From: Hasllibacter halocynthiae | GTDB lineage: Bacteria; Pseudomonadota; Alphaproteobacteria; Rhodobacterales; Rhodobacteraceae | Reading direction: 5' to 3' | Length of the DNA stretch: 64,000 nt | NCBI RefSeq assembly: GCF_003003095.1 | Contig: NZ_PVTT01000002.1 | Location: 372,001-436,000 of the forward strand | Shown: in pieces, positions 58,379 through 64,000 of the stretch | Position numbering within the stretch: position 1 is the stretch's first letter | Layout of the letters: every line of letters begins with the position of its first letter | Position numbers and translations under genes: made by a program | The notes under the pieces: generated by a model | The model's input: only the letters and a program-made list of their open reading frames with translations | Databases searched by the model: none | What the model was told of the DNA's origin: nothing

Positions 58379-59635
58379 GTGATCCGCCTCGACAACCCTC
58401 CCGCCGCCGCACCGCGCGGCTTGTGCACCGATTGCGGCCTGTCGCGGACGGCGCTCGCGGGGGCCTGCGGCACGGCCTGCCAGTTCATCCGGCCCGACTA
58501 TCCCGCGCGCGAGCGCGCGGTCCACGGCCGCGAGGCCGCCCGCGGGGGCGACGAGGGATTCTTCGGCGTCGTCCTCTCCATGCATCGGGCGACGATGACG
58601 CCCCCCGCCGAGGGCGCCCAGTGGACCGGCATCACCACCGCGCTCGCGGCGCGCGCGCTCCGCTCGGGTGGGGTGGACGCGGTGCTGACGATGGTGGCGG
58701 ACCCGGACGACCGATGGCGACCCGTGCCGGCGCTGATCACCGATCCCGTCGACCTGGCGCAGGCGCGGGGGATGCGGATGGGTTACGCGCCGCTCCTTGC
58801 GCTGCTCGAGACGGCGGCTTCCGCTGGCCATCGGCGCCTCGCGGTGGTGGGCATTCCCTGCCAGGTCCACGCCCTGCGCGCGGTCGAGGCACGGCTGGGC
58901 CTCGAGGCGCTCGTCGTGATCGGGACGCCCTGTTCGGACAACACCACGACGGAGAACTTCCACCGATTCCTCGGCCGGCTCACGAGCCGCCCGGAGGAGG
59001 TCAGCTACCTCGAGTTCAGGGCCGACTACCGGGTCGAGCTGCGGTTCCGCGACGGCGCCGTCCGCACCATCCCCTTCCTGAAGCTGCCGCTGTCGGACCT
59101 GCCGGACGACTTCTTCCCGCTGACCTGCCGGACCTGCGTCGACTACGCCAACCGCTTGTCGGACGTCACGGTCGGCTACATGGGCGGCGATGGCGAGCAG
59201 TGGTTGATCGTCCGGAACGAGCGGGGGCGCGCCCTGGTCGAAGGGCTGGAGGGGCTGCGCCTGTCGCCGCCGACGACCCGGGGGCGGCGCGGCCGGGCGG
59301 TCGCGGGGTTCGTGGCGAACACCGAAGCGGCGGCGGGCGGCCTGCCGGTGCGCCGGATGCCGGGTTGGGCCCGGCCCCTGGCAGCCTTCCTCCAGCCCCG
59401 GATCGGGCCGAGAGGCCTCGAGTTCGCGCGGGCGCGGATCGAGATGAAGGCCGTCGAATCCATCCTCCATCTCCGGCGACGGCTTCCGGCCCGGATGAGG
59501 TGGATGATCCCGGAGCACGTCTGGCGCCAGGCGGAGCCCTACGGCCTGCGATCCGCCGAGGGCGAGCGGCGCCACTCCTCCGAAGCCCCCTGCGGCACGG
59601 TCAACCCGGAGCCGCCACCACCTTCTGGTCTATGA
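58379..59635 (+). CDS. Coenzyme F420 hydrogenase beta subunit-like protein, BciB (8-vinyl reductase)-like
   Basis: A 418-residue flavin/iron-sulfur protein of the FrhB_FdhB family. GTG start 58379 is supported by GAGGG at 58368-58372; an ATG at 58301 is possible but overlaps the previous gene. Cysteines: GLCTDCGLSRTALAGACGTAC near the N terminus and TCRTCVDYANRLSDVTVGYMGG later, ligands for [4Fe-4S] clusters. EGAQWTGI, VVGIPCQVHALRAVEARLGLEALVVIGTPCSDN and VRNERG closely resemble BciB, the ferredoxin-dependent 3,8-divinyl chlorophyllide 8-vinyl reductase. No photosynthesis genes are nearby. Its 3' end overlaps the FAH gene convergently by 35 bp. Confidence 0.82.
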   Translation: MIRLDNPPAAAPRGLCTDCGLSRTALAGACGTACQFIRPDYPARERAVHGREAARGGDEGFFGVVLSMHRATMTPPAEGAQWTGITTALAARALRSGGVDAVLTMVADPDDRWRPVPALITDPVDLAQARGMRMGYAPLLALLETAASAGHRRLAVVGIPCQVHALRAVEARLGLEALVVIGTPCSDNTTTENFHRFLGRLTSRPEEVSYLEFRADYRVELRFRDGAVRTIPFLKLPLSDLPDDFFPLTCRTCVDYANRLSDVTVGYMGGDGEQWLIVRNERGRALVEGLEGLRLSPPTTRGRRGRAVAGFVANTEAAAGGLPVRRMPGWARPLAAFLQPRIGPRGLEFARARIEMKAVESILHLRRRLPARMRWMIPEHVWRQAEPYGLRSAEGERRHSSEAPCGTVNPEPPPPSGL

Positions 59636-60560
59636 CGCCGAAGGGCGGGGCCACCTCGTCGCCCATCCAGATCCGCACCCGGTCGCCGACTTCGAGGAAC
59701 GGGGTCCGGGCCTCGCCCCCCAGGATCGTCTCGACCATCCGCTGCTCGGCGATGCAGGAGTAGCCGCGCCCCCCGTCTGCCACCGGACGTCCCGGCCCGT
59801 CCGGGTCCCGGTTCGACACCGTGCCCGAGCCGATCACCGTCCCGGCCGGCAGGGCGCGCGTCCTCGCCGCGTGGGCGATCAGCGCGGGAAAGCCGAAGGT
59901 CATGTCGTGGCCTGCGTCCGCCCGGCCGAGCGCAAGGCCGTTCACCTCGACATGCATCGTGCCGTGCAGGCGTGCGCCGTCCCATCCTGGCAGCGCGTCC
60001 GGCGTCACCGCCACGGGGGCGAGGGCGGAAGGCGGCTTCGACTGGACGAAACCGAACCCCTTTCCCAGCTCGTCGGGGACGAGGTTCCGCAAGGAGACGT
60101 CGTTCAAGATGGTGACCAGACGGATGGCATGGGCGGCCTCGGCCTCGTCCGCACCCATCGGCACGGGGCCCGTGATCACCGCCACCTCCGCCTCGCAGTC
60201 GATCCCCCAGGTCGCGTCCCCCTCGATGGGCGCGTTGGGGGAGAGGAACGTCGAGCAGCCCTGGTACATGAGCGGGTCGGTCCAGAACCTTTCGGGCATC
60301 TCGGCCCCCCTGGCACGGCGCACGAGCTCGACGTGGTTCACGTAGGCCGATCCGTCTAGGAACTGGAACGCCCTCGGCAACACCGCGCCCAGGCGGCCGG
60401 CGGGCTTGTCGGGGACCAGATGGCGCAGCTTCGGCTCCCATCTGTCCCAATCGTCGAGCGCATGCTGCAGGGTCGTTCCCGCGCGCGCCATCCGGCGCCC
60501 GTCGGCGGAAAGCTTCACCAGCGGGCCGTCCGGCCCTTCCCGAAGGCTCGCCAGCCTCAT
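59601..60560 (-). CDS. Fumarylacetoacetate hydrolase family protein
   Basis: A 319-residue FAH-fold hydrolase, likely the last step of tyrosine/homogentisate breakdown (fumarylacetoacetate to fumarate and acetoacetate) given hmgA upstream. Landmarks: MRLASLREGPDGPLVKLSADG, YQGCSTFLSPNAPIEGDATWGIDCEAEVAVI with the metal-binding Glu residues, LNDVSLRNLVPDELGKGFGFVQSKPP and TVIGSGTVSNRDPDG. The start is the ATG at complement 60558-60560, which overlaps the stop of a 34-residue microprotein as ATGA. A longer start at 60602 is rejected. No maleylacetoacetate isomerase gene is adjacent. Confidence 0.92.
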   Translation of the reverse strand: MRLASLREGPDGPLVKLSADGRRMARAGTTLQHALDDWDRWEPKLRHLVPDKPAGRLGAVLPRAFQFLDGSAYVNHVELVRRARGAEMPERFWTDPLMYQGCSTFLSPNAPIEGDATWGIDCEAEVAVITGPVPMGADEAEAAHAIRLVTILNDVSLRNLVPDELGKGFGFVQSKPPSALAPVAVTPDALPGWDGARLHGTMHVEVNGLALGRADAGHDMTFGFPALIAHAARTRALPAGTVIGSGTVSNRDPDGPGRPVADGGRGYSCIAEQRMVETILGGEARTPFLEVGDRVRIWMGDEVAPPFGVIDQKVVAAPG

Positions 60561-60661
60561 CTGCGCCACCACCGGCCGTGGCTGAGCCGCCAGCGCAGCC
60601 ACGCCGTGCCGAGCACGACGCCGAGGAAGAGAAGGACGAGGAAGGCCCCCTTCGCCGTCAT
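60557..60661 (-). CDS. Microprotein, 34 aa, single TM segment, overlapping the FAH start
   Basis: ATG (complement 60659-60661) to TGA (60557-60559), translation MTAKGAFLVLLFLGVVLGTA then WLRWRLSHGRWWRR. Residues 6-20 are a hydrophobic helix and the tail is basic and Trp/Arg-rich, so the C terminus should face the cytoplasm. The TGA overlaps the FAH ATG as ATGA, the same coupling used by real genes in this window. No family recognised. The coupling and clean membrane-plus-basic pattern argue for translation. Confidence 0.6.
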   Translation of the reverse strand: MTAKGAFLVLLFLGVVLGTAWLRWRLSHGRWWRR

Positions 60662-60903
60662 CGACGCGCCTCCGGCCAGACCTGATGGACCCGGACGCCG
60701 CCGAACGTCGCGCGGCAATGCGGTCCGGGGGGGCATCGCTCCCTCAGGAAGATGCGGCAACGCGATGTGCGGCATGCAACCGAGGCGGGCGTCGCCGCCC
60801 CGAACCGCGCGCCATACTCGAAGGAGGCGGCGGCAGACGGAAGGTGCCCTCCGATGCCGGGAGGACTGCAGCCGTCAGCCACATGTCCCCCCGGAGCGGA
60901 GCG

Positions 60904-61023
60904 TCAGCGATCGCGACGGCGTACGCCGCCGTCGTGGTCCCTGGCGCCCTTGGACGCCATGACCAGCCCGACGATGGGAATGAGGAGCAGGATGCCCCAG
61001 GCTATCAATGCCGTCAGTTCCAT
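60904..61023 (-). CDS. Microprotein, 39 aa, single TM segment, in the homogentisate operon
   Basis: ATG (complement 61021-61023) to TGA (60904-60906), beginning MELTALIAWGILLLIPIVGL and ending in a charged tail, KGARDHDGGVRRRDR. A strong GGAGGAG ribosome-binding site lies 6-7 bases upstream. One membrane helix at about 4-22, then a basic/acidic cytoplasmic tail. The gene sits 41 bp after the 43-residue ORF and 242 bp before the 34-residue one, on the same strand as hmgA. Unknown family. Confidence 0.65.
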   Translation of the reverse strand: MELTALIAWGILLLIPIVGLVMASKGARDHDGGVRRRDR

Positions 61024-61064
61024 TGGCTTCTCCTCCACTCAGATCCGCTCGCGGCCTCAATCCC

Positions 61065-61196
61065 CTACTGCCCGTCACGGTTCCGGTTCCCCCTGCGCGC
61101 CTCCCGGCGATAGCGGCCGGTCGCACCCCAGGCGATGGCCCCGGCCAGCCCGATGGCGCCGAAGAGGACGGCGATGGTCCAGAGAACCTCGCTCAC
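61065..61196 (-). CDS. Microprotein, 43 aa, single TM segment, overlapping the hmgA stop
   Basis: GTG start (complement 61194-61196) overlapping the hmgA TGA as GTGA, to TAG (61065-61067). Translation begins (V/M)[19 protein letters not shown] and continues [23 protein letters not shown]. Residues 4-24 form a membrane helix; the remainder is a basic cytoplasmic tail. The GTGA overlap is the coupling mode used by at least five other genes in this window, which supports translation. Unknown family. Confidence 0.65.
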
Positions 61197-62557
61197 CAGT
61201 CACCCTCCGGCGTGCCGTCGAAGCGCTTGCGCAGGGCCGCCCAGCATTCGACATAGTCGTCCTGCAGCGGTGCCTCCTCGGCGGCGAAGCGGGTGAGGTG
61301 CTGGGGAAAGCGCGTCTCGAACATGAATGCCATCGTGTCCTCGAGTTTCGAGGGCGCGAGATCGGCGAGCGACGCGGCGCGGAACGCATCCTCGTCGGGC
61401 CCGTGGGGCAGCATCATGTTGTGCAGCGACATGCCGCCGGGGACGAATCCCTGCGGCTTGGCGTCGTAGACGCCGTGGATGTTGCCCATCAGCTCGGACA
61501 TGACGTTCTTGTGGTACCAAGGCGGGCGGAACGTGCCCTCGGCGACATTCCAGCGGTCGCGGAAGAGGACGAAGTCGATATTCGCCGTCCCGGGCACGCC
61601 CGAAGGCGCGGTGAGGACGGTGAAGATCGACGGATCCGGATGGTCGAAGAGGATCGCGCCGACCGGGCTGAACGTCTTCAGGTCGTACTTCACTGGCGCG
61701 TAGTTGCCGTGCCAGGCGATGACGTCGAGCGGCGAGTGGTCGATCCGGCTCTCGTGGAAGGCGCCGCACCACTTCACGACCATCCGGGCCTCGCAGTCAC
61801 GATCCTCGAAGCAGGCGACGGGGGCTAGGAAGTCGCGCGGGTTCGCCAGGCAGTTGGCACCGATCGGGCCGCGGTCGGGCAGGTCGAACTTCTGGCCGTA
61901 GTTCTCGCACACGAAGCCGCGGGCGGGCCCTTCGAGCAGGTCGACGCGATAGACCATGCCGCGGGGGATGACGGCGACCTCCTGCGGGGCGAGGTCGATC
62001 ACCCCCAGCTCGGTCGCGAAGCGCAGCCGCCCCTCCTGCGGGACGACGAGAAGCTCGCTGTCGGCCGAGTAGAAGTAGGTGTCGCCCATCCCTTCGGTGA
62101 CGAGGTAGACATGCGCGGCCATGCCGACCTGGGTGTTCACATCGCCGGCGGTGGTCATGGTCCGCATGCCCGTCAGCCAGGTCAGCGCCTCGCCCGCATG
62201 GGGGACGGGGTCCCAGCGGTACTGGCCGAGCGAGGTGACCTCGGGATCGACGTGCGGTGCGGACTTCCAATAGGGCAGGTCGATCCGCGACATCCGGCCC
62301 ATGTGCTTCACCGAAGGCCGGATGCGATAGCACCAGGTCCGCTCGTTCTGGCCGCGCGGCGCGGTGAAGGGGGTGCCGGAGAGCTGCTCGGCATACAGCC
62401 CGTAGGCGCAGCGCTGGGGCGAGTTCATCCCCCGCGGCAGCGCCCCGGGCAGCGCCTCGGTCTCGAAGTCGTTGCCGAAGCCCGGGGCGTAGCCGCCCGA
62501 CAGGCTGGGCGCCCCGGTCATCCCCTCGGGCAGGGGTTCGGATACGGTGTCGCGCAT
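61193..62557 (-). CDS. hmgA: Homogentisate 1,2-dioxygenase
   Basis: A 454-residue non-heme Fe(II) ring-cleaving dioxygenase converting homogentisate to maleylacetoacetate. [48 protein letters not shown] is the diagnostic N terminus. The iron-ligand region is [18 protein letters not shown] (His and Glu) and [17 protein letters not shown] (second His). Length is normal. A GGGAGG ribosome-binding site precedes the ATG. It lies 51 bp after the phosphoglucomutase gene on the same strand and overlaps the 43-residue ORF. Confidence 0.97.
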
Positions 62558-62608
62558 GTCTGACCTCCCGGGCGGGATGGTGGAGCGGCGCAGGCGCCGC
62601 GTCCAGCC

Positions 62609-64000
<1,392 letters not shown>

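Follow-up and report, generated by a model that had tools for sequence, protein, structure and literature searches.

The window analysed here, a 64,000-nucleotide stretch of the Hasllibacter halocynthiae genome, carries on its minus strand the gene for homogentisate 1,2-dioxygenase (hmgA) followed by a gene for a FAH-family hydrolase, with three very short open reading frames between the two on the same strand. An earlier note on this DNA had proposed these frames (ORF1, ORF2 and ORF3; 43, 39 and 34 codons), and we found them where it had placed them. The features of the locus, in minus-strand order, are:

62557-61193, minus strand: hmgA (homogentisate 1,2-dioxygenase), 454 aa; PF20510, PF04209 and the NCBIfam equivalog TIGR01015, above cutoff
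61196-61065, minus strand: ORF1, GTG start, 43 aa, single TM helix, basic tail; GTGA overlap with the hmgA stop
61023-60904, minus strand: ORF2, ATG start, 39 aa, single TM helix, basic tail
60662-60903, minus strand: 242-nt stretch from ORF2 to ORF3, apparently non-coding; GC-rich hairpin predicted directly after ORF2
60661-60557, minus strand: ORF3, ATG start, 34 aa, single TM helix, basic tail; ATGA overlap with the FAH start
60560-59601, minus strand: FAH-family hydrolase, 319 aa; PF01557 and PF18288, above cutoff

Neither Pfam nor NCBIfam returned anything above cutoff for ORF1-3, and no NCBIfam equivalog scored above cutoff for the 319-aa FAH-family hydrolase. The gaps between the microORFs measure 41 nt (ORF1 to ORF2) and 242 nt (ORF2 to ORF3); a 46-aa frame within the longer gap shows no gene-like GC periodicity, and folding of this gap gave z = -1.92, with 9 of 200 shuffles equally stable. 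The hairpin predicted just 3' of ORF2 spans 60849-60901 and has no U-run, and it could separate ORF3 and FAH from the upstream message. A search for known RNA families across 59000-63000 yielded only two sub-threshold matches, both within hmgA; no intrinsic terminator and no consensus promoter were found in 59400-62800 by a scan limited to the sigma-70 type, and 60400-61300 is free of direct repeats. The GGAGG preceding ORF1 sits in the terminal codons of hmgA (61193-61215), and at two loci elsewhere (L145 and L283) an hmgA with a similar tail directly overlaps FAH and MaiA, respectively, instead.

The hydrophobic helices and basic C-terminal tails that had been claimed for the three peptides are both present. 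The best 19-residue Kyte-Doolittle means are 2.23 (ORF1), 2.60 (ORF2) and 1.99 (ORF3), compared with 1.09 for HmgA and 0.85 for FAH by the same measure, and the net charges of the tails are +5, +3 and +5; in size and hydropathy all three thus fall among the small single-TM membrane proteins (fewer than about 50 aa, one helix). The start/stop overlaps also proved to be as described, with hmgA ending at 61193 within the GTGA it shares with ORF1 and FAH starting at 60560 within the ATGA it shares with ORF3. The GGAGGAG Shine-Dalgarno sequence singled out for ORF2 exists, but ORF1 and ORF3 have a GGAGG too; the motif lies 7-8 nt upstream of all three starts, and in the shuffled spacer only 4.5% of random ATG/GTG starts had a Shine-Dalgarno match of at least five bases. 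The argument that such a set is unlikely to arise by chance held up: when the spacer was dinucleotide-shuffled 5,000 times, 4,980 of the products contained no TM-ORF, 20 contained one and none contained two or more. The real hmgA-FAH spacer (71% GC) holds three TM-ORFs on the sense strand and none on the opposite strand. Third-position GC is gene-like (0.90, 0.82 and 0.94 for ORF1, ORF2 and ORF3). Codon-usage scores of the three frames are weak and do not prove coding, and ORF2 has a negative synonymous codon score, lower than the 5th percentile for genuine 40-codon pieces. In 324 kb of the same genome (a 260-kb sample plus the window) a crude gene finder delimited 83 co-directional spacers of 60-3000 nt, among which four others held a same-strand TM-ORF, one of these being the end of a long ORF; none of the 83 apart from hmgA-FAH held more than one.

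Convincing relatives of ORF1-3 were not recovered. The tblastn-type check proposed earlier gave no convincing homologous frame for ORF1, ORF2 or ORF3 in 295, 195 and 198 genomes, respectively, a set in which the genus of the window is represented by one genome. ORF1 had numerous weak matches in the 295 family genomes, which we read as noise (best E 0.0036 besides itself), many of those listed being frames well over 100 aa or containing internal stops; ORF2, in 195 genomes, matched itself and, weakly (E 0.07), the inside of a 961-aa frame; and ORF3 was weakly matched eight times besides itself among the 198 family genomes (best E 0.004). ORF1 matches at E up to 1 occurred in 213 of 295 genomes, its own included, and were discounted as noise for a query of 43 aa. 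The three peptides show no detectable relatedness to one another, the nearest hmgA relatives examined lack ORF1-3 (the highest HmgA identity seen in relatives is 82-83%), and searches of the open-access literature on homogentisate/hmgA operons and small (membrane) proteins yielded nothing on these frames. At the level of sequence comparison, missing homologues would fit a young or fast-diverging gene equally as well as no gene at all.

The position itself was compared among genera. Of 394 family genomes, each from a different genus, 270 contain HmgA, and we examined 150 hmgA junctions from 149 genomes and as many genera (the window plus 149 others, with G345 contributing two copies); these represent the better-scoring HmgA part of the list and not a random draw from the 270. 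By a rule of 25-90 aa and a helix score of at least 1.9, a TM microORF occurs in 17 of the 150 junctions, or 16 without L198, which is counted although it was judged doubtful by eye; this result supersedes an earlier pass with a lower cut (15/110, including the spurious-looking L184 and L198). Hydropathy counts miss cases such as L239, a member of the sequence group A described below that lies at hmgA with a helix score of 1.45, under the cut. In ten of the 17 junction microORFs the start lies no more than 4 nt from the stop of hmgA, and at L096 and L202 the same holds for an inner start of the same frame. The gene following hmgA encodes the 418-aa FAH in 98 of the 150 junctions, a MaiA-like protein in 20, the 319-aa FAH in 11, and is other or undetermined in 21; among the 17 carriers the figures are 11, 2 for MaiA, 2 for the 319-aa FAH and 2 for others. 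The junction microORFs fall into several sequence groups plus singletons, and none of ten from other genera scored above cutoff in Pfam or NCBIfam. Two of them (L040 and L129), grouped by eye, have a WDxYKPARFR stretch in common; the singletons L151 and L096 come from genera with one genome each. In one other genus an hmgA-linked microORF is common to two of seven genomes, at 93% identity and with a length change that is in frame; the other five genomes, whose hmgA junctions lie outside this comparison, gave no strong match to it. The tail ends of four hmgA-junction microORFs (L040, L129, L151 and L277) are Gly/Asp-rich (GGGD or GGGA) and not basic. That about one in ten of the related genera surveyed has another tiny membrane gene in this slot hints at a shared role.

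The enrichment was compared with several controls. Under one rule, TM microORFs were found at 16 of 150 first junctions and at 0 of 108 second junctions of the same operon (p=0.00013), spacer length not being matched in this comparison. Random co-directional junctions of at most 700 nt, taken with a crude gene finder from 20 stretches of 20 genera, gave 4/205 against 16/150 at hmgA (p=0.0007); one of these four random TM-ORFs resembles SecE, and the controls thus take in ordinary small genes as well. When both sets were restricted to spacers of 60-700 nt, the figures were 16/84 at hmgA and 4/71 at random (p=0.016). For spacers of 130-700 nt, a cut set after seeing the hmgA gaps, they were 16/28 and 4/35 (p=0.00014). 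The comparison was borderline (16/97 versus 4/71, p=0.051) when all spacers from 60 nt upwards were admitted, longer hmgA gaps than 700 nt included, while controls ended at 700 nt. A tighter rule, applied to the 28 hmgA spacers measuring 130-700 nt, found a TM-ORF on the sense strand in 15 and on the antisense strand in none, and 100 shuffles of the same spacers gave a mean of 0.07 TM-ORF and a maximum of 1; with the cut lowered to 1.6 the sense count stayed at 15, the antisense count was 1 and the shuffled mean 0.38. TM-ORFs are absent from 12 of these 28 spacers, from 10 of 25 hmgA gaps of 130-350 nt, and from all 109 hmgA junctions with a gap below 130 nt. If ORF1-3 were untranslated frames that happen to stay open, the weak codon scores and the lack of convincing homologues would be explained, but the shuffles, the Shine-Dalgarno sites and the recurrence at hmgA junctions speak so strongly against this that we regard it as barely credible. 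The same lines of evidence, with the overlaps, support the proposal that ORF1-3 are genes easily missed for their size, and we consider that they are probably real.

A cis-acting role would require no particular peptide: translation of the ORFs might relay ribosomes to FAH or tune its expression, whatever the peptide sequence. The GTGA and ATGA overlaps fit such a role, as do the mere four bases of FAH's own Shine-Dalgarno match and the fact that in many relatives hmgA directly overlaps the gene that follows it. A relay would nevertheless be broken by the gaps of 41 and 242 nt, it has no use for three hydrophobic helices, and elsewhere direct overlap already suffices; we judge this explanation improbable.

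Two of the recurring groups could be followed beyond hmgA. Group A (motif DLxFWI...RWLQ) resembles ORF1-3 in having a single helix and a basic tail, but no convincing sequence similarity connects them: the best z-scores among 39 compared were 2.8 for ORF2 and 2.3 for ORF3. A profile aligned from six members matched 22 of 394 genera, the weakest match (L240, E 6.8e-4) being doubtful; it gave no match at E 0.001 in the window genome (G000), and the group A consensus gave none at E 1 in plasmids. Seven of the 22 lie in an hmgA junction, where L239 precedes the 319-aa type of FAH as in the window, and the other 15 have no hmgA within a 1.5-kb flank on each side. Over 20 core codons in 22 members (the matches without the unrelated-looking L240, with L047 added), mean nonsynonymous difference was 0.26 and mean synonymous difference 0.68, and nonsynonymous was below synonymous in 228 of 231 pairs, figures that are somewhat overstated because members were found via protein similarity, which favours low nonsynonymous values, and pairs are non-independent; no such bias is seen in either of the two remaining frames. 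By this measure group A shows purifying selection, and it offers a conserved family that can be tested at once. Group C (GWL...P..IR) has six matches in 394 genera, three of them at hmgA and one of the non-hmgA matches apparently unrelated, and its profile likewise found no match at E 0.001 in the window genome. The linkage of the microORF groups to hmgA is not exclusive. At four loci (L225, L227, L233 and L228) group A adjoins membrane enzymes of the FA_desaturase type, following an AlkB-like gene in three genera and preceding a desaturase in one; PF00487 was confirmed for two of the four, one AlkB-like protein and the desaturase, and the name AlkB is our assumption from motifs. A convergent DUF2585 gene adjoins group A in two genera, and in a third such a gene lies past FAH at the hmgA locus (L226, L236 and L239), the L236 protein being confirmed by Pfam and the other two assigned by eye.

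Group A, with the majority of its matches outside hmgA junctions, also speaks against the original proposal that the three peptides may serve the homogentisate pathway as membrane adaptors or as subunits of a transporter. Position, topology and recurrence at hmgA are in its favor, but the adjoining genes are hmgA and the FAH-family gene, with no transporter among them, and both neighbouring enzymes, HmgA and FAH, are soluble. We rate an anchor or transporter role as a slim prospect, no better than cis action.

The history of the slot was traced in a FastTree tree of 115 HmgA proteins, in which carriers are over-represented, some sequences having been included on account of their microORFs, and L239 was scored a carrier by hand. 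The 17 carriers need 13 changes, and well-supported branches force at least four of these; some clustering of carriers is evident, since only 2 of 500 shuffles needed as few changes. The smallest supported HmgA set to which the window belongs has 18 rows, and no other row in it has microORFs; ORF1-3 thus look like gains specific to this lineage, or like descendants altered past recognition, as far as the tree and the searches can suggest. Such a distribution, with the 13 changes and the absence of convincing homologues, would also be expected of translated proto-genes, hydrophobic ORFs that arose downstream of hmgA and are expressed by coupling but have as yet no selected peptide function. In a study of Enterobacteriaceae, regions downstream of genes appear as a possible hotspot of gene birth, and the intergenic microproteins described there are mainly hydrophobic and mostly lineage-specific, part of them starting or stopping within 10 nt of a neighbour gene (PMC11188072); in these respects they resemble ORF1-3. 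The same study links microprotein hydrophobicity to AT-rich intergenic DNA, whereas the spacer here has 71% GC and one junction carries microORFs in many genera (PMC11188072). Purifying selection on group A and the empty second operon junction (0/108) also weigh against proto-genes, which we hold to be a serious alternative, though at well below even odds.

The reading we prefer, at a probability of roughly 45%, is that ORF1-3 are real, translated, lineage-specific small membrane proteins of the hmgA-FAH operon with an accessory or regulatory role. Selected membrane proteins are the most likely explanation, with unselected proto-genes nearly as likely for ORF1-3, and a selected peptide function of the accessory or regulatory kind is put forward only tentatively. 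Under the preferred reading, each ORF would form one inner-membrane helix, the basic C-terminus facing the cytoplasm by the positive-inside rule; translation of hmgA would feed ORF1, and that of ORF3 would feed FAH, through the start/stop overlaps, which are present in the sequence and from which coupling may be predicted. ORF1-3 would then fill the post-hmgA slot that other single-helix microproteins use in some genera of the family, and would act as small partners of a larger membrane protein important during homogentisate breakdown; the topology of the helix would count above exact sequence.

Among known systems, CydX of cytochrome bd oxidase and ORF1-3 are alike in being short and having one helix, but CydX is a needed component of a membrane enzyme, whereas the neighbours of ORF1-3 encode soluble enzymes. 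ORF1-3 matched no CydX/FixQ-type subunit profile above cutoff in Pfam or NCBIfam, and they lie beside hmgA and a FAH-family gene, not beside the oxidase genes typical of such subunits. The E. coli protein has 37 aa (PMC4325964), and CydX tolerates much sequence change (PMC6005532), so positional equivalents could drift beyond recognition.

More broadly, and with considerable doubt, the hmgA 3' slot in Rhodobacteraceae (in the broad sense) may have been refilled repeatedly by single-helix microproteins, non-homologous or beyond recognition, with a common function in the breakdown of aromatic amino acids, topology and coupled expression being selected and not sequence; the lineage of the window would have three of them. 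Were the slot functional, a single operon position would be taken again and again by genes of different sequence, a membrane component of a soluble catabolic pathway would have been overlooked, and GC-rich genomes would contain a recurring class of very short genes. One further hydrophobic ORF was observed at L208 (16116-16571), in a 1.5-kb gap between called genes, with a codon usage very unusual for the window genome.
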